Origin: Gordonia sputi NBRC 100414
GTDB lineage: Bacteria; Actinomycetota; Actinomycetes; Mycobacteriales; Mycobacteriaceae
Reading direction: 5' to 3'
Assembly (NCBI RefSeq): GCF_000248055.1
Contig: NZ_BAFC01000116.1
Coordinates: forward strand, 1 to 64,000
Length of the DNA: 64,000 nt
Of this stretch, positions 43,408 through 62,938 are shown in pieces. Each line of letters begins with the position of its first letter. Position 1 is the first letter of the stretch. The notes beneath the pieces were generated by a model that made no database searches, had not been told where the DNA came from, and saw only the letters and a program-made list of their open reading frames with translations. Made by a program: the position numbers and the translations under genes.

Positions 43408-43445
43408 GAAACACCCCCTCATCTGCGTAGATGAGGGGGTGTTTC
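43408..43445 (-). terminator. Original terminator of tRNA-Ser(CGA), displaced by the element
   Basis: GAAACACCCCCTCATCT pairs perfectly with AGATGAGGGGGTGTTTC (17 bp, 4-nt loop GCGT). It abuts the left 31-bp attachment repeat, in the position where the tRNA 3' end would lie without the insertion. So it was the chromosomal tRNA terminator, now 19.5 kb away from its tRNA. It may still stop transcription leaving the element. Confidence 0.85.
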
Positions 43446-43472
43446 TGGCGGTGGCGGAGGGATTTGAACCCT
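43442..43472. repeat. Left attachment site with tRNA-Ser 3' remnant
   Basis: A 31-bp sequence beginning TTTCTGGCGGTGGCGGAGGG and ending GAACCCT is identical to 62908-62938. It holds the acceptor 3' strand and T-arm of tRNA-Ser(CGA) on the minus strand but no more of the tRNA, so it is the truncated target copy. Confidence 0.93.
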
Positions 43473-43563
43473 AATCGGACCTCCTGGCCCGGTGCCGATA
43501 TGCCCTCTCACCTGCGGTTTGAGGTCATCTGACATCACATCAGATCAGTCGATTTCATGGACA

Positions 43564-43584
43564 AGTGTGGGCAGAATGTGGGCA
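43564..43584. promoter_or_regulatory. Putative integrase arm-type sites, left
   Basis: AGTGTGGGCA at 43564 and AATGTGGGCA at 43575 are direct repeats with an 11-bp period, about 90 bp inside the left attachment site. The same pair with the same spacing and orientation is at 62821-62841, inside the right end. Placement and helical phasing fit arm-binding sites for the integrase N-terminal domain. Confidence 0.55.
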
Positions 43585-43624
43585 CCATGGGTAGGAACGA
43601 TCGCTGCGCACGCGGGCAGGCAGA

Positions 43625-44806
43625 TTACTGTCGGTTGAGTACCCGCATTACGTGATCGCACCTGTACCGCTTAGCATCCCCGGGATAAAGCGGCTGCATC
43701 TCGCGGAGAATCCCCAGGTCCACGAGCATCAAGATCGCCTTCTTCGCCGGAGGGTACGTAACATCGTGCAGCTCGGCCGCCTGGGGAATCGTAATGATCG
43801 GATATCCAAGCAGACTGTCCGCGATGTTGTTGACAACACCACGAGCCTTGGCGGTTGCTAGTCGTTCCTTGAGGTCGATTTGGAACTCAAGTAGCTCCTC
43901 GATTCGCTGGACCCCATCTTCTGCTTGGTGATGTACCGCCTCACAGAAGAATTTCACCCACGAATCAAAGTCGCCAGTCTTACTGATGCCCAAGAGAAGG
44001 TCCATGTATCGGTCCTTGCGCTCTTCCAGCCACGGAGAGAGGTTGAGCACTGGGTAGGTCAAGGCGCCAGCCGTTACCAACTGAAGTGTGACGATCAGGC
44101 GCCCCAGCCGACCGTTGCCATCTGAAAACGGATGGAGCGTTTCGAACTGATAGTGAGCCATGGCGATTTTGACCAGGAGCGGGTAGTCGTCGTCCCGATG
44201 AATCCACTTCTCCCACTCGGAAATGCCTGCTACCAACTCATCCCCGCTTGGGGGTGGAACAAACCGTGAGGACTCTATCCCCTTGGTTCGCTCGCCGATG
44301 TAGACATTCGTTTCGCGCAGCTTCCCCCTGTCCCAGTTGTCTCCCCTTGTTCCTTGAACTAGAACCGCCTGGAGCGGTGCGATGACGTTGAGGCAGATGG
44401 GTTTGATCTTTATCAGCCTCAGGGCTTCCTCTGCTGCGCGTACATAGTTCATGACTTCTCGAACCTCTGCTCGACGATTTTGCTCGTCCACGAGGTCTGC
44501 CTCTAGCACCTCTTCCAGGGTGGCGTATGTGCCTTCCAGTGCGGATGTACTTTGAGCTTCACGACGGAGCGCAGGACGTACCAGCAGAGCTGGATTCGGC
44601 AGACGCTTGACAGCGAAGTCGAGGCGACCAACAGACATGCTTGCCTCATCAGCGAGCTTATGGGCCTTCAAGCTAAGACCGACCTCCGCAGGGAGGGGAT
44701 CAGGGACGTATGCGTAGTGCCGGTAGTCCTTGCCCAAGTAAGCGTCGTGACCCGAGATGGGCGTCAGGCGCCCTACTGGCGAGTCCCGGAAGTCTTCAAG
44801 CTGCAC
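43625..44806 (-). CDS. Fic domain protein with N-terminal inhibitory motif
   Basis: 393 aa. The Fic active site HPFSDGNGRLGR (about residues 225-236) transfers AMP (or another nucleotide moiety) to target hydroxyls. An inhibitory helix motif, S-x-x-x-E-G (STSALEGT, about residue 87), marks the class II self-inhibited type. A winged-helix-like domain occupies the C-terminal 100 residues (IITIPQAAELHDVTYPPAKK). No separate antitoxin is next to it. Upstream are repeated GTTATAGC sites. Lower GC than the chromosome. Role in defence, toxicity or regulation unproven. Confidence 0.88.
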   Translation of the reverse strand: MQLEDFRDSPVGRLTPISGHDAYLGKDYRHYAYVPDPLPAEVGLSLKAHKLADEASMSVGRLDFAVKRLPNPALLVRPALRREAQSTSALEGTYATLEEVLEADLVDEQNRRAEVREVMNYVRAAEEALRLIKIKPICLNVIAPLQAVLVQGTRGDNWDRGKLRETNVYIGERTKGIESSRFVPPPSGDELVAGISEWEKWIHRDDDYPLLVKIAMAHYQFETLHPFSDGNGRLGRLIVTLQLVTAGALTYPVLNLSPWLEERKDRYMDLLLGISKTGDFDSWVKFFCEAVHHQAEDGVQRIEELLEFQIDLKERLATAKARGVVNNIADSLLGYPIITIPQAAELHDVTYPPAKKAILMLVDLGILREMQPLYPGDAKRYRCDHVMRVLNRQ

Positions 44807-44848
44807 CGTTATACCTTCAGTCGCATTCGTTTAACGAGGCAGGGACTT

Positions 44849-45385: not shown

Positions 45386-45390
45386 AGGGT

Positions 45391-45971: not shown

Positions 45972-46769
45972 ATGACTGATGTGACTGACGATCAACGTCG
46001 CCTTGCCGAGACGCTAGATCGAATGAGTGACACCTGAGAGCGATTCCTTGAACGATCAGACAACCTACAAAGGCCGCGATCATCCGGTCAGGAAGCGATC
46101 GTTCCCTGCCTCATCGGACTCGCCTCACACACTGTCGATCTGGCAGAGGCCGCAAGGGACTTGACCTCAAGCAGCAGTCATTCAAGTGGCCTTGTGGCGA
46201 TGCCTCTGGTCAGAGCGGCCTTTGAAGGGGCGATCACAGCGCAATGGCTTGTCCATGTGCCTGACGCCATTGAGGCTTGGGTGAACGAGCATTCCCGGCT
46301 CACAACAAATCTCGTAAAAGGGCTGAGTGAGTCCAGCAGCGCCGACTTTCGAGACGCGGCCGGTGACGTGGAGAGAAATCGAGTTCTCAACAGCCTTCCT
46401 ACAACGTCCACGACACAAGCCCGCAAGTTCAACGAAATGTGTGAAGACCTCCAGATGCCCATTGATGCTTACACCTACTTCCGGCTGGTAAGCCAGTATG
46501 CTCACCCGTCGGTTGAATGCGTTGACCTGTACATGGACAGGTCAAGCAGTGCGCCTGACGCAATACTGCTTCGTCGCCACGCGCGGGTCGACTTCAGCGG
46601 GTGGCTACATCTGCTGGCACTCTCGGTCCTCTGGGCCATTGCGGCAGCAAGCACCTGTGACAAAGCTCGACGCACTCGGTCTGAGATACAGGCGTACGGA
46701 CGCGCACTTAGTGTCGAACCTTGGCTGAAACTCTCTGACCAAGCTTGGTGCCGCCTGCATGCCAACTGA
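45972..46769 (+). pseudogene. Gene interrupted by an in-frame TGA
   Basis: A frame opens at ATG 45972 (MTDVTDDQRRLAETLDRMSD), meets TGA at 46035-46037, and continues in the same frame with coding-like sequence (ERFLERSDNL...) to a stop at 46769, for about 265 codons. A one-base change (TGG to TGA) would explain it. The remainder resembles DUF5677-type helical proteins (MPLVRAAFEGAITAQWLVHV). Restart from TTG 46161 or ATG 46200 could give a shorter product. The only rightward gene in the cargo zone besides 48127. Confidence 0.7.
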
Positions 46770-46840: not shown

Positions 46841-47758
46841 CTAGGACACCAAACCCGCTGCCCTGAAATTCCCAGACCCGTAGCCGGTCCGAACGGCTAT
46901 GCCCAACGGGAGCCAGCTATTCACTCTGACCTCGAAGGATTTGAAGAGATCCATCATGTCTCGTTCGGGTTTCGAAGGCAGAAGCACGGCCTTGCGCTCG
47001 CTGTTGACATACCGGTGATAGTCGAGCACCTGCCCCAGCGCCAACCTCAGTGTGTTGCGGTCAGTGCTTGCCTTGACCTCAATCAACTCGTCTGCGGTGA
47101 CATCGAACAGATCCGTTGCAAGATCCGAGCCTTCATCTCGCGGAATCCGGTGCCGCATGACCGTATGCGCGGCATCGCGCAGGAAGTCGCAGTAACGCTG
47201 CTGCAGGGCAGCTTCCCGCCGACGGCGCTCCTGAGGTTCCGAAACGACTGCGTCCACCTCGAACGATTCCGCGACGTTCGACTCTGGAGGGACGAGTACA
47301 GCACCAGAAGTCTTCTTGCCCCCAGTTTCAGACTCTGCGCTAGTGGTCGCAGCCCCGTCGAGATACCAGCCGAACCTCTCAACGAGCCTGTCGAAGACCA
47401 GCTCGTTGCTCACTCTGGTGAATCCGCGGAACGCATGCGGATTGCCGTACTGGTCCAACCCGTAGACGTCAGACCACACTGATTCGGTTGACACTTCCTC
47501 AGCCGTTCCTCGCAGGTCACGAGCATCTTGCAGAGAATAGACTTTGTCGTAAGTATTGCCTTGGTACCAAATGAGATTCGCGAACTCCTGGTTCTCGAAC
47601 ACAGTCCCCACCCGGCCGACGAAGTAGAGCGTTCCGTCGCCTTGGAACAAGATGAGATCCCCTCGCTCGGGGTGCACAGTGTCCTTGGCATAGCCAAAGA
47701 ACCGCGAGTTCCCTGACGGATTGAGCGAGAGGCGTGACGCCCGTTCACCTTCAGTCAA
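46841..47758 (-). CDS. Putative PD-(D/E)xK restriction endonuclease, 5' end uncertain
   Basis: 305 aa as read from TTG 47758. The C-terminal half has a nuclease core: DLFDVTADELIEVKAST (acidic residues then ExK) followed by ALGQVLDYHRYV, the Q-x-x-x-Y helix of RecB/restriction-type nucleases. The N-terminal half (GDLILFQGDGTLYFVGRVG) may be a PUA/EVE-like base-reading domain; that is a guess from pattern. The frame stays open upstream to about 47877 without a start, and an ATG-led frame (47865) runs alongside, so a frameshift near 47820-47850 is likely. Confidence 0.65.
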   Translation of the reverse strand: MTEGERASRLSLNPSGNSRFFGYAKDTVHPERGDLILFQGDGTLYFVGRVGTVFENQEFANLIWYQGNTYDKVYSLQDARDLRGTAEEVSTESVWSDVYGLDQYGNPHAFRGFTRVSNELVFDRLVERFGWYLDGAATTSAESETGGKKTSGAVLVPPESNVAESFEVDAVVSEPQERRRREAALQQRYCDFLRDAAHTVMRHRIPRDEGSDLATDLFDVTADELIEVKASTDRNTLRLALGQVLDYHRYVNSERKAVLLPSKPERDMMDLFKSFEVRVNSWLPLGIAVRTGYGSGNFRAAGLVS

Positions 47759-47865: not shown

Positions 47866-48126
47866 GTGAGGATTATTACCGAGCCCTGTGACAGCCCCAG
47901 GCCGCATGCCCCCACTCCCACCACCCACGGCGCCCTCAGGGCATAGCGCCGCTTTCACACACAGAGCCCTCAGGGGGCCAGGATGCGCTCTGACGTCTGG
48001 GTTCAGGGACGCAGATGCCCCTGGGAGGGTGACCCCCTGCCAGGAGGGTCAGCCACCTCAAGGCATATGGCTTCTCTCCCCCCGGACACCCCCTCCCCCC
48101 GGTGGGATTCAAGCTAGCCTTCTGCC
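47866..48126. other. GC-rich gap containing the left long inverted-repeat arm
   Basis: No gene seen between the nuclease gene and the small gene at 48127. The stretch is rich in C-runs and short hairpins (for example GGCGC...GCGCC near 47925). Positions 48031-48084 match, in inverted orientation, 48431-48485. Candidate packaging or regulatory region. Confidence 0.6.
48031..48084 (+). repeat. Long inverted repeat, left arm
   Basis: Shares with the right arm, in order, GACCCCCT, GGTCAG, CCACC, GGCATATGGCT and TCTCCCCCCG, over about 54 bp with a few mismatches and one indel. Points inward toward the 92-aa gene. Confidence 0.8.
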
Positions 48127-48405
48127 ATGGCGTCCCCCGGACAAGCGAAATTCATTGCGAACCGACAGCGCGAGCTGGCCAAACTGCACCAGTTTGCGAA
48201 GGGTATCGACGAAGACCTACCCGAGTACCAACCACTGTTCGACGAGGCTCTAGACCTGTCGTCCGGGCAGGCAACGGCGAAGATCGAGTCACTGTACGAC
48301 GAGATCGTGGCGTTTCGGCGCCAGCACCGGATCACGAGGTGGATCGGCAAGGACGGCAGATACGAGCTAGAACCGCGAGCGTGGCCAGACGACCCCCACC
48401 ATTGA
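48127..48405 (+). CDS. 92-aa protein between inverted repeats
   Basis: Starts MASPGQAKFIANRQRELAKL and contains LSSGQATAKIESLYDEIVAF, an AT/SxxQ..FI...L plus LS..(E/Q)A...I..L pattern seen in small phage and plasmid proteins (DUF3072-like, from memory). No signal or membrane segment; highly charged, helical. Encoded opposite to the main operon and framed by 55-bp inverted repeats. Function unknown. Confidence 0.65.
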   Translation: MASPGQAKFIANRQRELAKLHQFAKGIDEDLPEYQPLFDEALDLSSGQATAKIESLYDEIVAFRRQHRITRWIGKDGRYELEPRAWPDDPHH

Positions 48406-48430
48406 CTTAGATCCGCCCGCGGAAAAAAGG

Positions 48431-48485
48431 CGGGGGGAGAACAGCCATATGCCCTGGGGTGGCCTGACCTGGGGGTGAGGGGGTC
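48431..48485 (-). repeat. Long inverted repeat, right arm
   Basis: Inverted partner of 48031-48084. On this side the C-run is followed, reading the minus strand, by GCCTTTTTTCC, giving it an intrinsic-terminator look for the leftward operon or for the small gene. The right arm ends 16 bp before the HNH gene stop. Confidence 0.8.
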
Positions 48486-48500: not shown

Positions 48501-48935
48501 CTACCACCACCGACGGTTGGTCTCGTAGACGCGGCCGCCGTTCTCGTAGTAGGTGCTGCCGTGATCGTCGGTGAGTGGACGGTCTTCGGTGGGGATGCTG
48601 CCGTCGGGGTGGAGTTGCCACGAGCCTTTGGGCAGTGCGCTGTCGGGCTCGTGGCTGTACGTCCGGGTCGGTCGTTTGTCGCCGGCCTGGCGGTTGCAGT
48701 GGCGGTGAGCTGCGGCCAGATTGGAGAGCTCGAAGGGTGCGCCGCCTTGGCTGAGGGGCACGATGTGGTCGATGGTGAGTTCGCCGGGGTCGAGATGTGG
48801 TGCGTCGGGGTTGATGGGTTGGCTGCAGAATGCGCAGTCGAGTCCGTCTCGGCGGGCCCGGTTGATGAATCGGTCTCGGATGCGTCGTCGTTTGCTTGCT
48901 TGTCGTGACCATTCGGTCTGGGCGGTGTTCGGCAC
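48501..48935 (-). CDS. HNH endonuclease
   Basis: 144 aa. Zinc knuckles CAFCSQPI and HRHCNRQ flank the HNH core ELTIDHIVPLSQGG...ELSNLAAAH. Many long-tailed phages place an HNH protein beside terminase and cos, where it aids DNA packaging; here there is no terminase, but a repeat-rich non-coding region lies immediately downstream. It may serve packaging by a helper phage or be a homing-type nuclease. ATG 48935 (MPNTAQTEW). Confidence 0.88.
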   Translation of the reverse strand: MPNTAQTEWSRQASKRRRIRDRFINRARRDGLDCAFCSQPINPDAPHLDPGELTIDHIVPLSQGGAPFELSNLAAAHRHCNRQAGDKRPTRTYSHEPDSALPKGSWQLHPDGSIPTEDRPLTDDHGSTYYENGGRVYETNRRWW

Positions 48936-48938: not shown

Positions 48939-49652
48939 CTAGTCCTGTGCTGTGACGATCTGTGGGGCCTCGGTGGATGTGCGCTCGCGGACGCGCCGGT
49001 CTACTTCGGTGATGATGCTGTCTGCGTAGGCGCGGTCGCGGTGTCGGTTGTCGATCATTGCTTGGTGGATGGTCTCGGCGATCTCTTCACCTCGTAGCGC
49101 GCATTCGGTGGGTGAGAGTTCGTTGGTCTCGATGCCGACGATCCCGGCGATGGCGTGGGTGGGATCGGGCAGGGTGACGTATGTGCGGCTCAATGCGTGC
49201 TGGGCTTGGCGTCGGTCGTAGGCATCGCGCACTGGTTCCCAGTGGTGGGCGAGTAGTTGCCGGTTGGTTGCCGGTGCATCGGAGCTGAGGTTGTTGACGA
49301 GCTGCGCGAGTTGGCTGGCGTCGGCGTAGCTCACCTTGTTGGGGTCGGTGGGCAGCGAGCTCAGCCATGCGAGATCTGCGGGGGTAAGTTCTTTCTGTCG
49401 CTGCTGGCTGGCCGGGACTGGGCGGACGTCGGCTGCGGGGTGGCGGTAGCTCTTGGCTACGTCGGCAACCGACAGGCCACGCGCTACGGCCTCAGCGTAG
49501 TCACGGGTGACGGCCGGCACGTCTGGCTGGGCGGCGTAGTAGCGGAGTCTGCCTGCCGCGAGGCCAGGGCTGGCGTCGATACCGATGAGGGTGTCGGCGA
49601 GTTGGCGGCTGGTGAGTGTGACGCTGGTGGCGGGTTCTGCTGTCGAGAGCAT
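48939..49652 (-). CDS. Unknown element protein
   Basis: 237 aa. No recognised family, no signal or membrane segment. Mostly helical with a short conserved-looking centre (LTPADLAWLSSLPTDPNKVS) and an acidic C-terminal helix. It sits 3 bp upstream of the HNH gene and 29 bp after the coiled-coil gene, in the tape-measure operon, so a structural or assembly role is possible but not shown. Confidence 0.6.
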   Translation of the reverse strand: MLSTAEPATSVTLTSRQLADTLIGIDASPGLAAGRLRYYAAQPDVPAVTRDYAEAVARGLSVADVAKSYRHPAADVRPVPASQQRQKELTPADLAWLSSLPTDPNKVSYADASQLAQLVNNLSSDAPATNRQLLAHHWEPVRDAYDRRQAQHALSRTYVTLPDPTHAIAGIVGIETNELSPTECALRGEEIAETIHQAMIDNRHRDRAYADSIITEVDRRVRERTSTEAPQIVTAQD

Positions 49653-50262: not shown

Positions 50263-53200
50263 TCAGAAACCTGATAGCGCCGCACGCTGACGGGCCTCGG
50301 CGAAGCGGGCCTGACCGCTATCGGAGCGGGCAGCGGGCAGCGATCGGGAGTGCTTCAAGAGTTGCTTGTTCAGTTCGATGAGTTGGTCGAGCCTGTCGAC
50401 GAGTTGGCCTGTGTCGCCGCCACCCTCAAAATCGCGGTCGACCATCTTCTCGAACGCAGCAGTCTGCCGCGGCGACAGCACCCGCTCCGGCGTGATCACG
50501 TTCTTCGCCATCAACCCCGTACCGATCGCCTGGCCGCCCTGGTCGTACCAGTTGTTCGCCTCCCAATGAGCGCGAGCACCCATCGGCGTCTGGTAGCGGT
50601 CACCTACGTACTTGTCGTAGACCTCGCCCTGGTCCTTGGGATTCTCAGTCGTTGGCGATTTCCCGGCTGCGGCATATACCTCGGGGCCTGCCTGTGGGAG
50701 TCCCCAGTATTTTCCGTTTCGCGCCAGTGGGTTCCAGCTCGATTCCTTCGTGATAATCCAGTCCGTGTCCGTCCACGGCTGACCGTCACGCCACGCCTCA
50801 CGAAGACCGGACTTGAACTCGTCCTTCACCGACCCCGACGACGAACTCTTCTTCGTATCGACACCTGTGTCCTCGCCCACCTTCGGACGATTCACACCCG
50901 GATCAGTCGGCTTGAACGACCCCCGCTTGTACGTGTTGGGCTGATACTGATCGGACGGCGCGAACTGGCGCTGCGACTTGTCGAACTCCGACTTCATCTG
51001 AGACTTGTTGCCCTCGTAGCGGGCTTTCATCCCAGACACATCAGAGTCGTACTTTGTCTTCAGCTCGCGCGAGCGGCGCTCGTACTCCGACTCCGAGATG
51101 GCGTGCGAATCCCGCAACGAATCCAACGACCGCTGATCCCGATTGAGTTGGGCCTCACGCGCAAACTTGTCGGCCTCCAACTGCTGACCGGCCTTCAAAT
51201 CATTCGACTCGTACCGTTGCTTCAACGACAGCGACCGCTCAGTGTCACCCTTGATCTGCCCGTACTTCTTACCGAGTGTGATCACCGAGTTCTCGTAGTC
51301 GTGACGCTTCCCCAACTCGTCCTGCTCGTAGGTGTCACGCAAAGACAACAGGCGAACATCTCGTTCGTCGGCAGAGATGCGCTTCGCCTGATAGTCATCC
51401 TCGATCGACGTCTTCGCGTCCTCAAGATCCGACTTCCGCGCATCAGCGGCATCCTTGTAATCCTGATCGAGCTTCTTCTTCTCCGCGTCGTAGTTCTTCT
51501 TCGCGTTCTCCGAATGTTGCTTCTCATACTCGGTGAGCGCCGCCAACCAACCAGGCGAATCATTCGTCGACAACACATCGAACAGGCTCGAAATCTGGCC
51601 TTTGACGAATGCGGCGACCACGTTGCCGGCACGCCCCGAAATGCTTGTGTCGCCGGCTTGCTCGGCGTCCTGGGTGATCGGGTCGAAGCTGTAACCGGAG
51701 TCGATGGACGAATCGATCGATGATCCCGACGCCACCGAATCATCCGATGACGAATCGGAACCCTTTCCGGCGTATTTGGTTTCGTCCTTGACGGGCATCC
51801 AGGCGCGGTTCGTGAACTGTGGATCATCGGCGCCGACGTTGCCGCCGACCATGCCGCCACCGTAGGAGCCACCCATCTCGACGTTCGTTCCGTCAGGCAG
51901 GGTGCCCGCGGTGTGACCACCACCAGGACCACCATTGACCCAGCCGAAACGCATCGACCCGGCAGGCCCTGTACCCGACTTCGCGCCCAGTTTCGCCAAC
52001 TGGTCAGCCTCAGCCGCCGTCGAGAACCGGCCACCAAACGGCGACAGGCCCGCAGCCAACCGCGCAAACGCCGACATGGCACCGGAGCAGTCGCCCCAGT
52101 TCACGCCGCCCCACACGTACGGAGCGCCCGTTAATGGACGAGACGCACCCTTACCGTTCGCCAGGTCCCGCAACTGTTGGCCGGTGACAATGCCACCATC
52201 AGCGAACTTCCGAACCCCATCAAACCCGGACGCAATACCGCGGGTAGCGATACCGGCGAGCGCGCCAGCCCATCCCGACACACCCTCCGGCACCGAATCC
52301 TTCGGCATCACCACAAGCCCGAACATGTCAGCCACCGTCGCCAAAATGCTTTGCGAACGGGCACGCTTGTTCTTCCCCAACGGGATATACGCTTCGCCAC
52401 CCGTCTCCGGTTCAGCCCACTGCACCAAACCCGGACCCGGCATAGCCTTCTGAATCAGAGCCTGATCCGGCGTCTTCCCATTCGCATACGACTCGAGCGC
52501 CGCAATCCCACCATCCGCGTACTGGCGGATCGAACCGTTCGCGTTGCTCGGCGGACCAGCGAAGATCCCATTGCCCGGTGCCATCGGGTTGGTTCCCTGC
52601 TGAAGATTGCGGACAATGATGTCTTTGTATTCGGTCCTCGTCCAGTCCTGCTTCTTTCCCTGATAGTCGGAGTCGTTGGCGGTGACGAGGATGCTCTTAC
52701 CGTTGTTGGTGCGGACCTCCACGCCGATGGTGCGGAGCTTGTCGATCACATCCTGCGCCAATGGCGCGTCAACAGCGATGTTTTTGTTGTTGTCCGCGTG
52801 AACCTTTGCGCCCATTTCCCGCAGCAACCCGAGCACGTCGTTACCGCCAGGTGCGGATACGTTGATCGCCTTGCCCTTGGGCATGTTCTGCAATGTCTGC
52901 GTGACGATCGCGAGCTTCCCCGACGCGTTGTCAGCGGCACTGATCTCGATCGTCTTGCCATCCGGGGACTGCTCCCACTTGATGTGCAACTGATCAAGCA
53001 TGTCGAGGGTCTTCTGGGTGACATCCGACGACTGGATCGAAACGGTCTTTTGATCGGGCTGCTGCTCGAACGCGGCCTTGATCAGCCCAAGATCCTGCAC
53101 CGTCTCGGATGCCCCACTGAGCCGGACAGAGAGATCGACAGCCTTCCCGCCGAGTTCCCCGTAAAGTTCGCGGATCTTCTCAATCGGCTGTCCTGTTGCG

Positions 53201-55632
53201 GTGGCTAGTTGCTGGAACGCAGTCTCCATCGACTTTGCGCCCTGCGCGATCGCCGCCTGATCACCTGTCGCCACTAGCTGCGCCTGCTTGTCCGCGAGAT
53301 CAGCGAGCGTGCGCGACAGTGCAGCACCCGATTCGGTGGTGGCATCCAACTGGTCGCCCTTGAACGCATCAGCGGTGATACCTTGCGCAGCGTCGGCGAC
53401 CTTGCGGATCGCTTCGGCCTGCTGCGCGATCGCCTCGGTCTTGCTACGCGCAGGATTGAGCGCATCCATCGCCGTCTTCAACGCGTTGAGCTTGTCCGAC
53501 GACGACGAGCTCTTATCGCCCATGACTCGGAAAGCTTCGCCCAGCTCAGTGATCCCCGGAACTACTCGACGCCCGATGTCCTGCTGCGCAACAACCTTGT
53601 CGCGCAATCCCTGCATGTCCTGAGCGGCTTTCGCGCCGCCGTCACCCGCAGCACGTAGCTGTGCCGTGAATGTCTTCCAGTCGCCAGCAGATCCACCCAA
53701 CGCTCGAGCCATCTGCTGCGACGTCAAGCCCGTCTTATCCATCGCACGCTGAATGTTCTGATACGCGCCGGCCTGCTCGTCCATGCTGGCCGAGATGTCA
53801 TCAGATGACCCGCGCCACCCCATCACGACATCACCGATCATGTCGGAGGCGACGTTGGTCCACTTCGCATCGGCCTTCGCACCCGCATCAACCTTCGCGC
53901 GGTACTCATCGACCTGCTCACCCAACTTCGCGTACACCGAATCAGTGACGGCGCCGCGCGTCTGAATCAGCAACTGCCCGGTGACCTTTTGTGTCTCCGA
54001 CAGATCCTTCAACGCTGCCGCGTACGCCTCGGTCTCCTGCTTCTGCTTCGCCGCCGACGCCGCCCACGCAGTACCGGCAATCGCCGCACCCGTGAGCGCC
54101 AACCCGAGCGGGCCGCCGAACACGCCCGCAACCGCAGACCCCGCAGCCTTGAGTCCAGTGCCCGCAGCCGCAGCCACACCAGCCGTACGACCGAACCGTT
54201 GCGCACCATCCGACGCGCCAATGAACGCACCCTGCATCCGACCAACCACAGGAACGTGAGTCCCCAGAGTTGCCACAGCCGAACCGAACCGACCGATCTC
54301 CGTGCCACCCATCGCGGCAAGTTGCCGCTGCACAGCCATCTGATCAGAGAAGCCCCGCAAACTCGTGGTCGCAGAACGCAGACCCGTCGTCATCGGCGTG
54401 ATCGCACCCGTAACGCGTCCCAAGATCGAGGGAATCGTCTTGAATGCCAACCATGCTGCGACCAGCCCGGTCACGACACCCTGATTGTTCTTCATCAAGC
54501 CTGCTGTCGCCTCAAGCAGCGGGTTCAGCGCACTCAGCGCCGTTGTGCCAGCTTGAAGCGCAGTGAGAAACAGTTGCCAACCCGAAACACCCAGCGCCGC
54601 AGACGCCTGACCCAACGACGCCACAACCTGCCCGACAGCAGGAGCCGCAGCCTTCAACGCCTCGGAAAGCTGACGGAACGTCTCTTTTGTATCGCCAAGT
54701 ACGCCGGTGTCTTTGAGGGCTTCGAACGCCTCACGGACCTTAGGAGCCCACTCCCCAAACACCTTCGCGTCGAACGCCGACGCGAGCGCCTTCGCCTTCG
54801 GAGTCAACTCATCAATCCGAGTCGTCATCCCCGTCAGTGCGGTAGGCAGACGGTTGAACCCCGGCTCCATCGCCGCAGCACCCAGGCGACCCATCGCCGC
54901 TTTCAGATTCTCGAAGCCGCCCTTGACCGTCGACGACCCAATCGTCTTCGCCGCACCACCAACATTCGCCTCGATAGCCTTGAAGAACATCTCCGACGAA
55001 ATCTTGCCGTCGCCGGCCATCTTCTTCACTTCACCACCAGTGACACCCGCCTCCTTGGCGAGCCACTGATAGATCGGAATGCCTCGGTCCGCAAGCTGAT
55101 TCAGGTCATCGGTGTAGGCCATCTGCCCGGTCTGCACCTGGTTGAGGATGGCCCCCATGTCGCCGAGAGACGTCCCCGCAATGGCCGCGGTATCCGCAGT
55201 CATCGTCAAATACTTGGTGAGATCCTTGCCAGGCTTGACCCCAGCAGCCATCGCGGATGCCGAGATGGTCGCCGCATCACCTAGCCCGTACGCGGTGCCC
55301 TTCACCGCAGCCAACGCCGAATCCATCACCTTCGCCGTGGTCTGCGTCGACGCACCGAGAGCGCTCAGCTTCCCCTTTGCCTGGTCGATCGCATCCAGAC
55401 GCTTGAAGCCAGCCTCGAACGCGGTACTAACCGCCGACATGCCCGCGCCGACAGCCTTCGACGCACCGATACCAAGCGCGGTACCCATCGCCGTAGACAT
55501 GGCGCCGCCCATCGACCGACCAGCACGAGTCGCCTCACGATCAGCCTGACCAAGCGCCGAACGGATGCCGGGACCGAGGCGAGAAGTTTCCGCGACGATT
55601 GATAAATATGCGGTCCCGATTTCCGTGGCCAT
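50263..55632 (-). CDS. Tape measure protein with NlpC/P60-like and lytic transglycosylase modules
   Basis: 1789 aa. Residues about 20-260 are a tape measure domain (AGFKRLDAIDQAKGKLSALG, NQVQTGQMAYTDDLNQLADR). A long helical, Ala-rich region with hydrophobic segments follows. Residues about 865-985 hold repeated units of about 37 residues (KTVSIQSSD, KTIEISAAD, KAINVSAPG, KNIAVDAP, KSILVTAND). A Cys/His cell-wall peptidase module (WGDCSGAM near 1180, GGGHTAG near 1240), a charged coiled coil (about 1385-1570) and a transglycosylase-like module (KESSWNPLARNGKYWG near 1630) come next. In siphophages this protein sets tail length and helps DNA entry. No other tail gene is present. Confidence 0.93.
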   Translation of the reverse strand: MATEIGTAYLSIVAETSRLGPGIRSALGQADREATRAGRSMGGAMSTAMGTALGIGASKAVGAGMSAVSTAFEAGFKRLDAIDQAKGKLSALGASTQTTAKVMDSALAAVKGTAYGLGDAATISASAMAAGVKPGKDLTKYLTMTADTAAIAGTSLGDMGAILNQVQTGQMAYTDDLNQLADRGIPIYQWLAKEAGVTGGEVKKMAGDGKISSEMFFKAIEANVGGAAKTIGSSTVKGGFENLKAAMGRLGAAAMEPGFNRLPTALTGMTTRIDELTPKAKALASAFDAKVFGEWAPKVREAFEALKDTGVLGDTKETFRQLSEALKAAAPAVGQVVASLGQASAALGVSGWQLFLTALQAGTTALSALNPLLEATAGLMKNNQGVVTGLVAAWLAFKTIPSILGRVTGAITPMTTGLRSATTSLRGFSDQMAVQRQLAAMGGTEIGRFGSAVATLGTHVPVVGRMQGAFIGASDGAQRFGRTAGVAAAAGTGLKAAGSAVAGVFGGPLGLALTGAAIAGTAWAASAAKQKQETEAYAAALKDLSETQKVTGQLLIQTRGAVTDSVYAKLGEQVDEYRAKVDAGAKADAKWTNVASDMIGDVVMGWRGSSDDISASMDEQAGAYQNIQRAMDKTGLTSQQMARALGGSAGDWKTFTAQLRAAGDGGAKAAQDMQGLRDKVVAQQDIGRRVVPGITELGEAFRVMGDKSSSSSDKLNALKTAMDALNPARSKTEAIAQQAEAIRKVADAAQGITADAFKGDQLDATTESGAALSRTLADLADKQAQLVATGDQAAIAQGAKSMETAFQQLATATGQPIEKIRELYGELGGKAVDLSVRLSGASETVQDLGLIKAAFEQQPDQKTVSIQSSDVTQKTLDMLDQLHIKWEQSPDGKTIEISAADNASGKLAIVTQTLQNMPKGKAINVSAPGGNDVLGLLREMGAKVHADNNKNIAVDAPLAQDVIDKLRTIGVEVRTNNGKSILVTANDSDYQGKKQDWTRTEYKDIIVRNLQQGTNPMAPGNGIFAGPPSNANGSIRQYADGGIAALESYANGKTPDQALIQKAMPGPGLVQWAEPETGGEAYIPLGKNKRARSQSILATVADMFGLVVMPKDSVPEGVSGWAGALAGIATRGIASGFDGVRKFADGGIVTGQQLRDLANGKGASRPLTGAPYVWGGVNWGDCSGAMSAFARLAAGLSPFGGRFSTAAEADQLAKLGAKSGTGPAGSMRFGWVNGGPGGGHTAGTLPDGTNVEMGGSYGGGMVGGNVGADDPQFTNRAWMPVKDETKYAGKGSDSSSDDSVASGSSIDSSIDSGYSFDPITQDAEQAGDTSISGRAGNVVAAFVKGQISSLFDVLSTNDSPGWLAALTEYEKQHSENAKKNYDAEKKKLDQDYKDAADARKSDLEDAKTSIEDDYQAKRISADERDVRLLSLRDTYEQDELGKRHDYENSVITLGKKYGQIKGDTERSLSLKQRYESNDLKAGQQLEADKFAREAQLNRDQRSLDSLRDSHAISESEYERRSRELKTKYDSDVSGMKARYEGNKSQMKSEFDKSQRQFAPSDQYQPNTYKRGSFKPTDPGVNRPKVGEDTGVDTKKSSSSGSVKDEFKSGLREAWRDGQPWTDTDWIITKESSWNPLARNGKYWGLPQAGPEVYAAAGKSPTTENPKDQGEVYDKYVGDRYQTPMGARAHWEANNWYDQGGQAIGTGLMAKNVITPERVLSPRQTAAFEKMVDRDFEGGGDTGQLVDRLDQLIELNKQLLKHSRSLPAARSDSGQARFAEARQRAALSGF

Positions 55633-56073: not shown

Positions 56074-56401
56074 GATCGCCCCCGCTCCCCGAATCCAGCA
56101 GAGGGGATGCCGACGCGACCACCGTGATCGCCGTGGGGATTCCGAGTTGATCCGCCCAGTACCGCACGACCGACGATGCGGACTGGTCACCTGTATGCGC
56201 CGCAGCCTCCGACACTCGACGTCGCCCACGTCGCCGCCAGGCCGCGGGTAGCTCGGCGTGCCGGCCATGATCGGCCATGAAGCGCTCAGCATCACAGACA
56301 GGCACAGAGCACACGAGAGCGAGGCCGATAGCTGTGAGGCACTCTTCACCATCGACGAGGTATGTCAGCGCCACCGACCCGTCTGTATCCGGTCCGGTCA
56401 C
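56066..56401 (-). CDS. Small element protein of unknown function
   Basis: 111 aa. Begins VTGPDTDGSVALTYLVDGEE, contains two Cys (ALVCSVPVC) and an Arg-rich stretch (AWRRRGRRRVSEAAAH), then a helix (SSVVRYWADQLGI). No family recognised. Its start and stop overlap the neighbouring genes (ATGA-type overlaps), so it is translated with WhiB and the helix-turn-helix protein. Confidence 0.55.
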   Translation of the reverse strand: MTGPDTDGSVALTYLVDGEECLTAIGLALVCSVPVCDAERFMADHGRHAELPAAWRRRGRRRVSEAAAHTGDQSASSVVRYWADQLGIPTAITVVASASPLLDSGSGGDRD

Positions 56402-56706
56402 GCCGCCTCACCGCCCTTCCGCGGCCTGCCGGGTTGGCGCGGAACCCGGCCCGCCGTGACCGCATGCTCTTGATCAGCTCTCGAGTCCGCCCAAGAGCGG
56501 CACGCATCAATGACGGGGCACAAGCCACATATGCGTGCAGCTGCTGTGTGCCGGTACGCGGCATCGGCAACGTCCTCGTCTGCGTCGCGAGCGTCGAACA
56601 GGCCAGGCGAATCGACACATGCGGCACCCGAGAGATTCGCAGTGCCCTCGAGGATCGCCGCGAGAAGCGACACCTCACCACCTTCCCTGCGCGTTGCCGC
56701 CCTCAT
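56398..56706 (-). CDS. WhiB-family iron-sulfur regulator
   Basis: 102 aa. Four Cys in the WhiB arrangement: ACVDSPGLF, then ICGLCPVIDAC (CxxCxxxxxC), followed by a short loop and a basic C-terminus (RVPRQPGRPRKGG) that can contact DNA. WhiB proteins are confined to actinobacteria and their phages, where phage copies can block host WhiB function or superinfection. The ATG overlaps the AAA gene stop. Confidence 0.85.
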   Translation of the reverse strand: MRAATRREGGEVSLLAAILEGTANLSGAACVDSPGLFDARDADEDVADAAYRHTAAARICGLCPVIDACRSWADSRADQEHAVTAGRVPRQPGRPRKGGEAA

Positions 56707-58022: not shown

Positions 58023-58501
58023 GCCGCAACCTCCCCACGCGCCGAGCAGAGCCGCTCCCACAACGAACGGACCGCGGCTCCCTCTCGAACGAACGTCCGC
58101 CAGGCGTCCGCCTCGGCGCCATCTCGAGCACGCTCCGCGATCGCATCCGCAGCCGAGAGCATCCGCGCCCGCACAAGTTGCGCGAGGATCACGCCCGCGA
58201 ACTCCCACAAACGTTCCGGCGCCGCGTCGGTGGTTACCGCGTCGAGCATCCGGTTCTTCGCGAGCTCACCATGATGGCCCGAATACGCCCCGCTCCTGAG
58301 CAATTCGTCGTTGAGTAGGACGGGTGCAGGTGCTCGCCCGTTCTTCGCCATCTCGAGAGCGGCGTCGAGGCAAGTGGCGGTGGGAGCGTCGAGAAGGCGC
58401 ACCTCGTCTGGCGTGACAACCGAGAGCGCCGACACCACAGAGGCCGCGGATGAGTGAAGTGTGGCAGCGAGCAAACATAGGGTGGCTGACGGATCGTTCA
58501 T
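58019..58501 (-). CDS. DnaB-N-like companion of the RepA-like ATPase
   Basis: 160 aa, helical. LLAATLHSSAASVVSALSVV and GELAKNRMLDAVTTDAAPER recall the N-terminal domain of DnaB-type helicases, here as a separate protein just before the ATPase, an order known for actinophage replication modules. Stop and start overlap the genes on both sides. It probably acts with the ATPase. Confidence 0.6.
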   Translation of the reverse strand: MNDPSATLCLLAATLHSSAASVVSALSVVTPDEVRLLDAPTATCLDAALEMAKNGRAPAPVLLNDELLRSGAYSGHHGELAKNRMLDAVTTDAAPERLWEFAGVILAQLVRARMLSAADAIAERARDGAEADAWRTFVREGAAVRSLWERLCSARGEVAA

Positions 58502-58731
58502 GCGGCGCCCTCCGTTCGCTGGCGACGGTCAGCTGCCTCGTTGCGCCGGCATATGGGGCCGGCACCGACCGCCTTGGATTTCGTTGCGGTGAGGGCCGCA
58601 CCGCAGCAGCGGCACCGAACGGCGAGGATGAGAGTTCCGTCGCGCAGCGCAGCCCGCAGCAGCTTGTCGGCGGGGTCGATGAAATGTTCCGAATACCCGG
58701 CAGGGGTATCGGTAGAATGTCGGTTAGACAT
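58498..58731 (-). CDS. DUF6011-like zinc protein
   Basis: 77 aa from ATG 58731 (MSNRHSTDTPAGYSEHFID). The core CRCCGAALTATKSKAVGAGP followed by ICRR matches the DUF6011 pattern (CxxC...S...GxGPxC), a small zinc-binding protein common in actinophages. Function unknown. First gene of the replication sub-operon, after a hairpin at 58750-58783. Confidence 0.75.
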   Translation of the reverse strand: MSNRHSTDTPAGYSEHFIDPADKLLRAALRDGTLILAVRCRCCGAALTATKSKAVGAGPICRRNEAADRRQRTEGAA

Positions 58732-58749
58732 TGTGATGAGTGTCCTTCC

Positions 58750-58783
58750 GGGCCCGACCTCGAACGCCGCCGAGGTCGGGCCC
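58750..58783. terminator. Hairpin dividing the element's leftward operon
   Basis: GGGCCCGACCTCG pairs perfectly with CGAGGTCGGGCCC (13 bp, 8-nt loop). It lies between the early small genes and the replication genes. No T-run follows; it may attenuate rather than fully stop transcription. Confidence 0.65.
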
Positions 58784-58854
58784 AATGGGTTTGCGTGGAG
58801 ACTTTGGTCAGGAGCCCACGCGAATCTGGTTCGCGCCCACCCAATTGAGGAAGG

Positions 58855-59487: not shown

Positions 59488-59618
59488 CGGTTCTTCACCT
59501 CGTTGTCGGTCAAATCTGCGTTCCACGAATCGAATTTCGCCTCGGCGCCATCCTCACGACCGACCAAGTAGGCCAATGTGATTCCCGTGATGAAGGCAAC
59601 TGCCACTACGGCACTCAT
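59484..59618 (-). CDS. 44-aa single-pass membrane protein
   Basis: MSAVVAVAFITGITLAYLVG opens a 44-codon frame with one membrane helix and an acidic tail (GREDGAEAKFDSWNADL). It is coupled on both sides: its ATG overlaps the stop of the gene before it (ATGA) and its TGA overlaps the ATG after it. That exact double overlap argues it is a real gene despite its size. Role unknown; superinfection exclusion is one possibility. Confidence 0.6.
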   Translation of the reverse strand: MSAVVAVAFITGITLAYLVGREDGAEAKFDSWNADLTDNEVKNR

Positions 59619-60322
59619 TTCGCGTCCTCCCCGTGGACGGCCCGGAGCGCGTCGATGAGTGCAGCCGAGTGATCGTCGTAGATTCCTGCGCGCGGAGGAT
59701 CGAGGAGTTCAGCGAGCGCAGTCGTCATCAACTCCGCCAGCTGCTTGCGACGACGTACAGCTTCGCCGTGGTTGTGCACGCGAAGGCAGTTGACGCACTC
59801 CATGATTCGCCACCCATCTGAATCGAACTCGCGTCGGTGTCGCGACTGGCCGTATGCGATTGGGTCCAGAGGAGTCTTCGGAACGCTGTTGGTTTCGTCG
59901 GCATTCGCAGGGGTAGGCACCAGTTCCCCGCACAATGTGCGCATCATCGGCGCGCCTGCGGCGATGGCCTTCTCCTCGACGGACGAGTACCAAATGTGGC
60001 TCAGCTGCGGGTTTCGCTTCATCCCGGCACGTGCACGATCCATGAACTCGGTTGAGTGGACGTTGCCGTAGTCGTCGGGCATGCCGTAGGCCAACGCCCA
60101 CGTACGCTCGTCATGGCTGCTCCCGTGAACCAGGGCGTGCCGTGTGACCGTGCCGCAGGCAGCGCACTTGAGGTCGCCGGTTTGGGTCGACCAATCCCGG
60201 TTGCGTGGCCGCTTAGCCTGCCGAGTCTGTGCGCAGACAGTGCAGATCGCCAGCAGCAGGTCGTATACGTGGCGACGTCGCTCTTCCAACAATTCAGCGA
60301 CAGTGGGTACAGTGGTAGTCAT
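59615..60322 (-). CDS. Zinc-knuckle element protein
   Basis: 235 aa. Cys pairs AICTVCAQ, LKCAACGTV and MECVNCLRV suggest one or two zinc sites; the N-terminus (LLEERRRHVYDLLLAI) is helical. No family recognised. Ends with an ATGA overlap onto the 44-aa gene and begins 4 bp inside the preceding gene's end. Confidence 0.55.
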   Translation of the reverse strand: MTTTVPTVAELLEERRRHVYDLLLAICTVCAQTRQAKRPRNRDWSTQTGDLKCAACGTVTRHALVHGSSHDERTWALAYGMPDDYGNVHSTEFMDRARAGMKRNPQLSHIWYSSVEEKAIAAGAPMMRTLCGELVPTPANADETNSVPKTPLDPIAYGQSRHRREFDSDGWRIMECVNCLRVHNHGEAVRRRKQLAELMTTALAELLDPPRAGIYDDHSAALIDALRAVHGEDAK

Positions 60323-60681
60323 CGATTCTCCTTCTGAGAGTTGGTTTCGCCCGAGGTGACGTTCTTGGCGGGATGCACCTCGGGCGCTGTCATTTCCGCG
60401 CCGATGAGGTCGGCGAGGTCTTTCACGGACTGCGCGAGATCACGTAGACGGTCGCGGTGCTGGTCATCCCGAGGGGTCTCGAGGACGACGTCGTGGAGCA
60501 GATCGGCGGCCCGGTCGAGCATCCGCAGGCGCACGCGAGGATCGAGGCAGTCGGCAACACCGTCTTCTGGAGGCGTTGTTGCGACGATCCGCTCGCACGG
60601 TCGGGTGAACCGGCGCGGACCTTCGAACTCGTCGGCGCCGAGCCCCGCGTCCTCCGCTTCAGTGAAGGGGTAGCGATTCAT
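60319..60681 (-). CDS. Small early element protein
   Basis: 120 aa from ATG 60681 (MNRYPFTEAEDAGLGADEFE), charged and helical (RDRLRDLAQSVKDLADLIGA). The ATG overlaps the excisionase-like stop (TGATG). No family recognised. Confidence 0.55.
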   Translation of the reverse strand: MNRYPFTEAEDAGLGADEFEGPRRFTRPCERIVATTPPEDGVADCLDPRVRLRMLDRAADLLHDVVLETPRDDQHRDRLRDLAQSVKDLADLIGAEMTAPEVHPAKNVTSGETNSQKENR

Positions 60682-60911
60682 CAGGCCGCCCCCGGGTTGA
60701 CAGTGTTGGCCTCCAGGTAGGCGTGGACGTCGGCCCAGCGGTAGAGCACTCGGCGGCCGTGCTTGATATAGGGGATACCTCGGCTGAGGTAGCGATCCTG
60801 CGCCAACGCGGCTGTAGTTGTGTGCATGAACTCGGCAACCTGATCTGGAGTTCCGATTTCGGAATGCGCCGAGTCGGCCGCAGCCTTCCCCAAATGCGGA
60901 GTTCTCGTCAT
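60681..60911 (-). CDS. AlpA/excisionase-type DNA-binding protein
   Basis: 76 aa from ATG 60911 (MTRTPHLGKAAADS). GTPDQVAEFMHTTTAALAQD, then YLSRGIPYIKHGRRVLYRWA and DVHAYLEAN form the helix-turn-helix-wing fold of excisionases. First gene of the leftward operon, divergent from the repressor: the usual place for a recombination directionality factor or lytic switch protein. Confidence 0.8.
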   Translation of the reverse strand: MTRTPHLGKAAADSAHSEIGTPDQVAEFMHTTTAALAQDRYLSRGIPYIKHGRRVLYRWADVHAYLEANTVNPGAA

Positions 60912-60952
60912 AGTCCCAATGCCTTCCCTTCTTCTCACGCGATCTCTGAGTA

Positions 60953-61018
60953 TCGCTTGAGATTTGAAGATAGGTGCCTGGGGGCGCGATGTCAAGCGAC
61001 ACTGGAGTATCGCCAGTG
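60953..61018. promoter_or_regulatory. Operator region between repressor and excisionase-like gene
   Basis: CACTGG-AGTATCG-CCAGTG (61000-61018) is a perfect inverted repeat ending 16 bp before the repressor start. TCGCTTGA (60953) and TCAAGCGA (60992) form a second inverted pair, and GAGTATCGC occurs twice. The 123-bp gap must hold both divergent promoters, so these are likely repressor operators. Confidence 0.6.
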
Positions 61019-61034
61019 ACATAGAATCAGAGTC

Positions 61035-61724
61035 ATGGCGAACCCCACCGCGCTATCAACACTGCTCGGACAGAACGTCCGACGCCTACGCGAAACCGCC
61101 GGCTTGACGACCGATGAACTCGCTAAACGCATGCAGCCGTTTGGATTTCGTTGGCAAGGAAGTAGCGTTCGAGCACTTGAATCCGGCAGGTCTACGGTCA
61201 CAGTTCACCTGCTGATTGCGCTGGCAAGCGCACTAGATGGCGCTTCTCTTGATGGGAACGAATCCATCAACGCGGTCGCTCTGCTAGCGGCACCTCGAGG
61301 CTCACTCATTGATGTTGGGAACCAAACCCCCCTACTCGCCGAGTATCTCCAGGAGTTCTTCAATGGAGCCCCCGGAAGCACTCTCAGGGTCGGATTTGCC
61401 GAGCTAGTGGACCAGGAAGCCCAAGCCCGCTCCCACGCCGCCAGCGACGGGCTGTCCGGCATCGAAGCCGGTCGGGCTCGCTATACCTCACAAAAGCAGC
61501 TGCACAGCTTCGGTGAGACCGAGCGGAGAGTGGTAGAAGATCTAGGAATTTCACTGCCCGAACTCGCGTACCTGTCACACAAACTGTGGCGACGAACCAT
61601 CACGGATGAACGTGACCAGCGCGCTGGCGGAGACAGCAATCCGCAGAAACGAGGGCGAGTAATGCGAGAACTCAAACAAGAACTCAGGGAAGAACTCTCA
61701 AGGGACCAAGATGGCGACGATTGA
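61035..61724 (+). CDS. XRE-type repressor
   Basis: 229 aa. N-terminal helix-turn-helix (LGQNVRRLRETAGLTTDELA, then SSVRALESGRSTVTV). The C-terminal part has no visible self-cleavage motif; it ends in a charged tail (MRELKQELREELSRD). It probably keeps the leftward operon silent. The last 14 bp overlap the integrase start, so repressor and integrase share one transcript, unlike the actinophages in which the attachment site lies in the repressor gene. Confidence 0.8.
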   Translation: MANPTALSTLLGQNVRRLRETAGLTTDELAKRMQPFGFRWQGSSVRALESGRSTVTVHLLIALASALDGASLDGNESINAVALLAAPRGSLIDVGNQTPLLAEYLQEFFNGAPGSTLRVGFAELVDQEAQARSHAASDGLSGIEAGRARYTSQKQLHSFGETERRVVEDLGISLPELAYLSHKLWRRTITDERDQRAGGDSNPQKRGRVMRELKQELREELSRDQDGDD

Positions 61725-62868
61725 GCGCTACTCAACGAAGTCGGGCGCGCGATACCGCGTTCGCTACCGCACTCCCGACCATCGCCAGACCGACAAGCGC
61801 GGCTTTCGAACTAAGCGTGACGCCGAGGCGTTTGCCGCCACCGTCGAGGTCGAGAAGCTGACAGGCTCGTACATCGCTCCGACACTTGGTCGGATCACGA
61901 TTGACGAACTAGCGCCAGACTGGTTGGCACGCAAGGAGTCCGACGTCGCGCCGTCGAACTACCGAACGCTCGAGAGTGCGTGGCGCACGCACGTCGAACC
62001 GCAGTGGGGCCGTCGACGAGTCTCGGACATCGAGCTCGGCGAGGTCGAGCGGTGGATCGCGGATCTTGGGCGCACCATCACCGACGCCAAGGGCGAAGTG
62101 GTGAAGAAGGGCGCCGGCGCGACGACGATCATCCGCGCCTACGGCGTACTCGCCGGCATCCTCGACGACGCGGTGAAGTCTCGGCGACTCGCAGTGAACC
62201 CAGCCCGTGGGGTCGAGAACTTGCCGAAGAAGGGCCGCAAGCGGCACGTCTACCTGTCAGCATCCGACGTCGAACGTCTCGCCGTCGAGTCGGGTGAGCA
62301 CCGCGCCCTAGTGCTCACCCTGGCCTACTGCGGTCTGCGCTGGGGCGAGCTGGTTGCCCTGCGGGTCCGCGATGTCGAGTTCCTGCGGAAGCGGCTCACT
62401 GTGCATGACAATGCGGTGCAGCTTGGTGTAGAGCACGCGGTTGGGCGCACGAAGTCACGCAAGACTCGATCGGTACCTGTCCCCCAGTTCATCCTTGATG
62501 AGCTCTCGGTGCAATGTCAGGGGAAGGATCTCGACGAGCTGGTGTTCCCGGGTCCGAACGGTCGGTACCTGCCGCGGCCGAAGTCCACTCGAGGGTGGTT
62601 CGCCGGAGCGGTGCAGCGGGCAGGAGTTCAGACGATCACGCCGCACGATCTGCGACACACGACAGCGAGCCTCGCGGTGTCGGCCGGCGTCAACGTCCTG
62701 GCGCTCGCACGGATGCTCGGGCACACCTCCGCGAAGGTCACCCTCGACGTCTACGCAGACCTGTTTGACGACGATCTAGATGCTGTCGCGGTCACCCTGA
62801 ATCAGCGCTACTCGCCGCAGAGTGTGGGCAAAGTGTGGGCAGAGGGAACCACCGACACCTCCCCGTAG
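61711..62868 (+). CDS. int: Tyrosine-type site-specific integrase
   Basis: 385 aa. N-terminal arm-binding domain (SGARYRVRYRTPDHRQTDKR), SAM-like core-binding domain, and catalytic domain with Arg in CGLRWGEL, Lys in GRTKSRKTRS, HDLRHT, GHTSAKVTLDVY (His then nucleophile Tyr). It recombines the 31-bp core in tRNA-Ser. The last codons contain the right pair of GTGTGGGCA repeats. The stop is 40 bp from the attachment site. Confidence 0.95.
   Translation: MATIERYSTKSGARYRVRYRTPDHRQTDKRGFRTKRDAEAFAATVEVEKLTGSYIAPTLGRITIDELAPDWLARKESDVAPSNYRTLESAWRTHVEPQWGRRRVSDIELGEVERWIADLGRTITDAKGEVVKKGAGATTIIRAYGVLAGILDDAVKSRRLAVNPARGVENLPKKGRKRHVYLSASDVERLAVESGEHRALVLTLAYCGLRWGELVALRVRDVEFLRKRLTVHDNAVQLGVEHAVGRTKSRKTRSVPVPQFILDELSVQCQGKDLDELVFPGPNGRYLPRPKSTRGWFAGAVQRAGVQTITPHDLRHTTASLAVSAGVNVLALARMLGHTSAKVTLDVYADLFDDDLDAVAVTLNQRYSPQSVGKVWAEGTTDTSP
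62821..62841. promoter_or_regulatory. Putative integrase arm-type sites, right
   Basis: AGTGTGGGCA at 62821 and 62832, 11 bp apart, inside the 3' end of int and about 70 bp from the attachment core. It mirrors the pair at 43564/43575. In the circular form both pairs would flank the core in the same orientation. Confidence 0.55.
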
Positions 62869-62874
62869 ACACCA

Positions 62875-62910
62875 AAATGGCCCCCTACCTGGGAAGATAG
62901 GAGGCCATTT
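62875..62910. terminator. Element-borne terminator behind tRNA-Ser and int
   Basis: AAATGGCC...GGCCATTT (8 bp) continues as CCTA...TAGG with one mismatch and a 10-nt loop. It stops int on one strand and tRNA-Ser(CGA) on the other, replacing the tRNA's own terminator left behind at 43408-43445. Confidence 0.75.
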
Positions 62911-62938
62911 CTGGCGGTGGCGGAGGGATTTGAACCCT
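62908..62938. repeat. Right attachment site within tRNA-Ser(CGA)
   Basis: Identical over 31 bp to 43442-43472. It covers the tRNA acceptor 3' strand, the T-arm and 7 bp downstream. Integration therefore rebuilds an intact tRNA gene on this side. Confidence 0.93.

Follow-up and report, generated by a model that had tools for sequence, protein, structure and literature searches.

Why would an integrated element with no detectable head gene devote more than a quarter of its length to a phage tape measure protein (TMP)? This question is raised by a 64,000-nucleotide stretch of the Gordonia sputi NBRC 100414 genome (contig NZ_BAFC01000116.1 of assembly GCF_000248055.1, positions 1 to 64,000; hereafter the window), in which a first-pass annotation made from the sequence alone had proposed a satellite-like element. 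In this study, we propose, with a probability of roughly 60%, that the integrated element at 43442-62938 (19,497 bp) is a phage satellite of a new actinobacterial family, characterized by a gene termed C0 and by packaging through cos and/or the small terminase subunit (TerS) and an HNH endonuclease, and that it builds chimeric tails around its own TMP.

The element is sharply bounded, as the first-pass annotation had claimed. A repeat search found a 31-bp direct repeat, TTTCTGGCGGTGGCGGAGGGATTTGAACCCT, at 43442-43472 (attL) and 62908-62938 (attR), within a longer repeat designated D2, and the right copy lies in the 3' end of a tRNA-Ser(CGA) gene (62912-63002). In another Gordonia genome, G028, both flanks and a single 31-bp core are contiguous and form an empty attB. 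The GC content of the element is below that of its flanks. The element thus has the features of a satellite resembling the phage-inducible chromosomal islands (PICIs), namely a discrete length of 10-20 kb, an integrase, att repeats and an empty site in a relative.

Starting from attR, genes for a tyrosine integrase (61711-62868) and a helix-turn-helix (HTH) repressor (61035-61724) lie on the plus strand, followed by a long co-directional run on the minus strand. This run encodes an AlpA/excisionase-like HTH_17 protein (60681-61022; weak Pfam match, E 1.4e-3), a conserved protein (59615-60322; 50% identical to its counterpart in the Gordonia relative G054), a DUF6011 protein assigned by domain match and also present in Gordonia relatives (58498-58785), an AAA_25 replicative helicase that resembles the C-terminal part of phage primase/polymerase (56703-58208), a WhiB-like regulator conserved in four Gordonia relatives (56398-56706), an HTH_17 DNA-binding protein of a family termed C3 (55654-56073; Pfam E 1e-12), the TMP (50263-55632), C0 (49682-50218), a 237-aa protein (48939-49652) and the HNH endonuclease (48501-48935). 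The true start of the C3 gene is probably the GTG at 56073, the longest open reading frame (ORF) reaching 56352. Library scans confirmed the integrase, repressor, WhiB and HNH genes listed in the first-pass annotation and, by a weak match, its AlpA-type gene; the gene called RepA-like there is a replication gene, but it encodes the AAA_25 helicase rather than RepA. With the repressor, the AlpA-like protein and the helicase, the element has regulator and replication genes of its own, as is characteristic of satellites.

The TMP gene was the sole virion gene recognized when the main ORFs of the element were scanned against Pfam and PHROG, and no portal, capsid, large terminase subunit (TerL), tail tube, holin or lysin gene was detected in these scans. 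Likewise, when 44 virion and packaging proteins from five related phages served as tblastn queries, the element was matched by its HNH gene alone, whereas 5-20 genes were found in most true prophages searched in the same run. By Pfam, PHROG and tblastn, the element has no major capsid, portal or TerL gene of its own, which would define a capsid-forming PICI, and it shows neither the remnants of several virion modules nor the irregular ends of a degraded prophage. No other TMP and no PF04860 portal was found anywhere in the host genome. The TMP, first described as complete, is a single open frame of 1789 aa that makes up 27.5% of the element (5370 of 19,497 bp). It matches Pfam TMP_3 (E 3e-19) and, almost end to end, a PHROG tape measure profile (1141 bits), and it aligns with the TMPs of Gordonia siphophages over 95-98% of its length at 38-44% identity. 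Its C-terminal stretch matches a transglycosylase PHROG, which might favour use of the protein as a cell-wall hydrolase for plasmid-like transfer, an alternative raised at the outset. However, phage TMPs commonly have transglycosylase-type domains, neither a relaxase nor a conjugation gene was seen, and C0 had no match among 72,556 plasmids; we regard a role in transfer as extremely improbable.

Weak relatives of the window C0 were found in four other Gordonia genomes, and a C0 profile detected the family in 19 of 401 Mycobacteriaceae-family genomes, the 19 falling in 7 genera, with hosts including Mycolicibacterium wolinskyi, Mycolicibacter arupensis, Rhodococcus sp. EPR-157 and Gordonia sp. 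ABSL11-1. All four Gordonia C0 elements have the same order of integrase, repressor, small genes, DUF6011, helicase, WhiB, HTH gene, TMP and C0. The genes of relatives were taken from a simple ORF caller, and some element boundaries are cut by contig ends; clear att repeats, mostly at tRNA genes (Leu, Lys, Met, Arg, Val, Pro, Ser), delimit 13 C0 elements (twelve plus that of the window) of 14-19.5 kb. No portal, TerL or capsid gene was detected in these 13. The Pfam families listed for 212 in-element proteins, 25 per list, included none for a portal, a large terminase, a capsid or a tail tube, although weak single matches may be missed, and the sole structural match among them was a Gp37-like tail protein in G205. 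In the tblastn search described above, the satellites were matched only by HNH, TerS, chaperone and minor-tail genes. A TMP is present in 10 of the 13 att-bounded elements, in two of which (G312 and G296b) it belongs to another TMP family, and 15 loci carry one when all C0 loci read are counted. Genes of the C3 family adjoin C0 or the TMP gene in 7 elements.

This recurrence bears on whether the element is a full prophage shrunk by deletion, as the first-pass annotation had considered. The window TMP is homologous to phage TMPs, and related TMPs occur in some Gordonia prophages, but these prophages sit at other loci. Moreover, the element retains intact att sites, integrase and replication genes. 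Its reduced set of genes, C0 included and in the same order, is found again in several genera in elements of 14-17 kb that lie at different sites, and C0 was found in none of 50,697 phage records when one family member was used as query. A history of shrinkage is already contradicted by these observations and seems very improbable. Elements with this gene set occupy various tRNA sites in four further Gordonia genomes and in other genera and have divergent integrases; TMPs are common in this capsid-less family. Neither of the two outcomes that the first-pass annotation had named as refuting its view was seen. The module order shared by five Gordonia genomes and other genera, despite their different integrases and att sites, supports a satellite, in agreement with the first view of the element as satellite-like rather than decayed.

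The attachment site itself provides another comparison. In a relative, G020 (L141, G020:C8:18500-31500), the attB used in the window is occupied by another element, of 10 kb, and the integrases of the two elements are 97% identical. The G020 element carries genes related to those for the AlpA-like protein (78% identical) and the 59615 protein (86%), while a phage capsid and a cement gene replace the TMP and C0 genes. Judged by its genes, the G020 element is capsid-carrying and satellite-like. The genes it shares with the window element indicate that integration and replication genes are common to capsid-carrying and TMP-carrying elements, and the presence at this attB of an element with shared modules, not a full prophage, supports the satellite interpretation.

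In its model (mean pLDDT 80), C0 consists of a helical hairpin and, after it, a bundle of helices, and it had no match in NCBIfam and no consistent match in PHROG. IMG/VR scans with the window's own C0 and with the 48939-49652 protein gave no match. A known scaffold, a known chaperone and a known capsid-size protein were each rejected as identities of C0, since neither sequence nor Foldseek comparison (E<0.1) gave a match, and a weak match of one of 20 C0 members to a PHROG major head protein was not taken as evidence. As separate observations, a Gp37-like minor tail protein lies near C0 in the G205 element (L048/L049), and a 510-aa protein, MuF-like as judged by eye only, lies near C0 in the Rhodococcus G361 element (L052/L053).

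Alternatively, the TMP could be only a passenger or a recombination reservoir, acquired with a late region and without a role in particles. In a tree of N-terminal TMP regions, the window TMP is sister to a group formed by Birdsong, Lucky10 and the satellite G047, and other satellite TMPs fall in satellite-only branches. At least three changes between satellite and phage are required, although long branches leave the details unsure, and TMPs have thus been exchanged with phages repeatedly. Such exchange, together with the existence of C0 elements that have no TMP, would be expected of a passenger. On the other hand, open TMP frames of 1300-1880 aa are kept in more than a dozen elements, and the TMP is favoured above every other virion gene. 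The ratio of nonsynonymous to synonymous substitution rates (dN/dS) is 0.17-0.39 for satellite TMPs and 0.10-0.15 between two phage pairs; these estimates are rough, with several dS values above 1, but they lie well below 1 and indicate purifying selection on the satellite TMPs. A passenger role is therefore improbable, though less so than a reduced prophage.

The first-pass annotation had suggested that the TMP resets the tail length of a helper phage. This is unlikely, since the two satellite TMPs with a clear phage counterpart equal it in length (1802 aa in G047 vs 1798 aa in Lucky10; 1880 aa in G022 vs 1884 aa in EMsquaredA). What differs is the centre of the protein. The ends of the G047 TMP are 87-93% identical to those of Lucky10, whereas residues 450-1050 are only 26-40% identical, and G022 and EMsquaredA show a like pattern with a narrower diverged centre. 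Between two phages, Birdsong and Lucky10, the TMP centre is 52-66% identical. Since the centre varies between phages too, a diverged centre is not peculiar to satellites, although it is more pronounced in them. Matched length, matched ends and a changed centre together suggest that the tail keeps its length but contains a different TMP. In G051 and G054, a tail assembly chaperone gene lies between the TMP gene and C0, and its product is 44-45% identical to that of Bradissa; in G312, a minor tail protein gene follows shortly after the TMP gene. A separate case is genome G056, in which eleven TMP matches, some adjacent in opposite orientation, were seen on the short contigs C2, C7, C11, C15, C27 and C31; they adjoin duplicated tail tube and chaperone genes and may reflect an assembly artefact or an amplified prophage.

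The same features could mean that the satellite TMP mainly interferes, competing for chaperones and the tail tip and poisoning helper tails, which would protect the satellite and its host. Prophages and satellites are known to direct defences at tail assembly (Tab, PMC10884400; Rta, PMC12987554). Ends that match those of the helper TMP and a centre that differs, as well as the Fic defence-like gene also carried, would suit such a role. Nevertheless, full-length, length-matched frames under purifying selection and the chaperone co-carried in two relatives fit working tails better, and Rta is only 80 aa long (PMC12987554). We consider interference the foremost competitor of chimeric tail building, but unlikely.

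How would an element without TerL be packaged? Many relatives encode TerS in the gene that immediately follows C0, of PHROG_4479, 1459 or 1496 depending on the element, with the PHROG_4479 type up to 72% identical to the TerS of Cheoctovirus mycobacteriophages. Just upstream of the satellite TerS gene sits a copy of a phage cos region, and in G051 the cos-HNH-TerS arrangement is like that of the left end of a phage. The cos of Lucky10 is matched in G047 at 82% over 85 bp (score 98 vs a maximum of 33 in tests in which pairs of bases were shuffled). The other matches are Bradissa in G054 (71) and Ecliptus in G051 (51) among Gordonia satellites, and Cornucopia in G130 (64) and Ecliptus in G147 (45) in other genera. 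The first-pass annotation had not foreseen these packaging modules of TerS, HNH and cos, nor C0 as a hallmark gene, nor the chaperone of two relatives.

In the window, the 237-aa protein at 48939-49652 occupies the position of TerS in relatives, and its role is assigned by position only. It was rejected as a TerS, having no homolog in PHROGs, phages or IMG/VR, as was the C3 HTH_17 protein, whose weak match to PHROG_57 covers the HTH only and which has no phage relative. The HNH endonuclease, a Pfam match that is 40% identical to the cos-flanking HNH of Lucky10, is the likely packaging partner beside cos. A candidate cos-like motif, CCYCARGGCATW, gave 6 overlapping matches, equivalent to three sites at 47934(+), 48056(+) and 48459(-), against 0.06 expected from shuffles; this excess is suggestive only, because the motif was picked after inspection of the data. 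The site at 48459 lies 42 bp past the HNH stop, and Lucky10, Birdsong and Bradissa have this layout at their right ends. The HNH gene and the candidate motifs thus probably form a packaging module. The cos-like motifs also tend toward inverted pairs, which in the window flank a 92-aa ORF (48127-48405). In oriented element coordinates, such pairs lie at 18318(+)/18698(-) in G054, where they flank a second HNH gene, at 18261(+)/20643(-) in G047 and at 19181(+)/19290(-) in G022.

It is reasonable to speculate on how these parts would work together. When a helper siphophage whose tail is related infects the cell, the element would excise and replicate by means of its own helicase, and the helper terminase would package it at a cos-like site beside the HNH gene. 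The satellite TMP would then take the place of the helper TMP in tail assembly, yielding particles with the head, tube and tip of the helper and the TMP of the satellite. We infer this replacement step by analogy from the PICI-like elements (PLEs) of Vibrio. The TMP of a PLE replaces that of the helper phage ICP1 in virions, and deletion of tmp lowers transduction by 96-99.9% (PMC12987554); chimeric tails have been experimentally shown for PLE1, 4 and 11, which carry a TMP and use helper capsid proteins (Mathur, Boyd et al. 2026; PMC12987554). The likely gain would lie not in tail length but in a TMP with a different centre whose ends still fit the tail machine of the helper. Such a TMP could evade blocks on the helper TMP, alter DNA entry or compete with helper tails. 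As an example of such a block, escape substitutions against Rta fall in a 73-residue stretch of the ICP1 TMP (PMC12987554).

Several observations weigh against this proposal. The window element has no recognizable TerS, and its alignment with five phage cos regions was not significant (best score 35, shuffle maximum 37). The host genome yielded no resident helper. A TMP is missing from about one third of C0 elements and is thus not essential to the family, and the C0 model matched nothing in PDB and BFVD at the Foldseek threshold given above. Finally, whereas the sequence data show the signature of mobility, the gene content, the family, selection on the TMP and, in relatives, helper-like packaging signals, the induction of the element, its packaging and the incorporation of its TMP are predictions.

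Beyond the HNH end of the minus-strand run, the cargo comprises a 305-aa protein (46841-47758, minus strand) that had no Pfam, PHROG or PADLOC match, a DUF5677 protein assigned by domain match (46161-46769, plus strand) and the SoFic-type Fic protein (43625-44806, minus strand; Pfam Fic_N/Fic, PADLOC SoFic E 6e-91), a candidate anti-phage gene. Outside the element, a dispersed repeat at 43260-43390, with many copies across Gordonia genomes, lies beside the attachment site, and just beyond attR the stretch 63457-63918 encodes a protein with 60-nt tandem repeats (KITEFTENEKVQDAVGTAKE) and adjoins a 69-aa CsbD-like ORF.

The remodelling for which satellites were known before 2026 concerned heads and packaging, not tails, and the Vibrio PLEs are the only tested case. 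In the open-access literature we found no earlier description of the C0 family and no actinobacterial satellites of the cos/TerS type that lack a capsid but carry a TMP. Candidate PICIs of Mycobacterium have been defined by an integrase plus a capsid (PMC10654092), so that capsid-less elements like those of the C0 family would be passed over. The broader idea, on which we are evenly divided, is that widespread, undescribed capsid-less satellites of actinobacteria, with C0 and a helper-matched TerS or cos and mostly with a TMP, in some cases beside a chaperone or tail-tip gene, whose ends fit the tail of the helper and whose centre has been replaced, form chimeric tails of unchanged length, by which they evade or outcompete the helper tail. 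If this is true, tail piracy would be common, general and independent of PLEs. Isolated and sequenced Gordonia siphophages share cos with the satellites, which makes the system directly testable, and it could show where a TMP has to fit the tail machine, where it tolerates exchange and what benefit the exchange brings.

Compared with known systems, the window element is like PICIs and Staphylococcus aureus pathogenicity islands of the cos and TerS types in its length of 10-20 kb, its integrase, AlpA-like/HTH regulators and own replication gene, the helper-type TerS or cos of its family, its candidate defence cargo and its lack of head genes, but unlike them in that the TMP makes up a quarter of the element and C0 has no match in the libraries searched. 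With capsid-forming PICIs, the Mycobacterium candidates (PMC10654092) and Mulch and Flayer of Streptomyces (PMC10690885), it shares the character of actinobacterial satellites, some of them at tRNA genes; those elements bring capsid genes, whereas the window element has none and brings a TMP. The Gordonia siphophages Birdsong, Ecliptus, Lucky10, EMsquaredA and Bradissa have homologous TMPs, and their cos and HNH-TerS modules match those of the satellite relatives, but these phages possess complete virion gene sets and C0 was not found in the phage collection. Putative tmp genes have been noted in PLE-like elements and some capsid-forming PICIs (Extended Data Fig. 10 of PMC12987554). Unlike the PLEs, which belong to Vibrio in a different phylum, have the contractile-tailed ICP1 as helper and are not known to share genes with it, the window element has a TMP related to those of Gordonia siphophages. 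The TMP of PLE11 shares only 20% with that of its helper, and the tails of PLE11 are shorter by 10 nm (PMC12987554), whereas in the C0 family the length is kept and the ends match phage TMPs. Like the PLEs, however, relatives of the window element carry further tail genes, a chaperone in G051 and G054 and, comparable to the tail-tip gene sometimes present in PLEs, the minor tail gene of G312.

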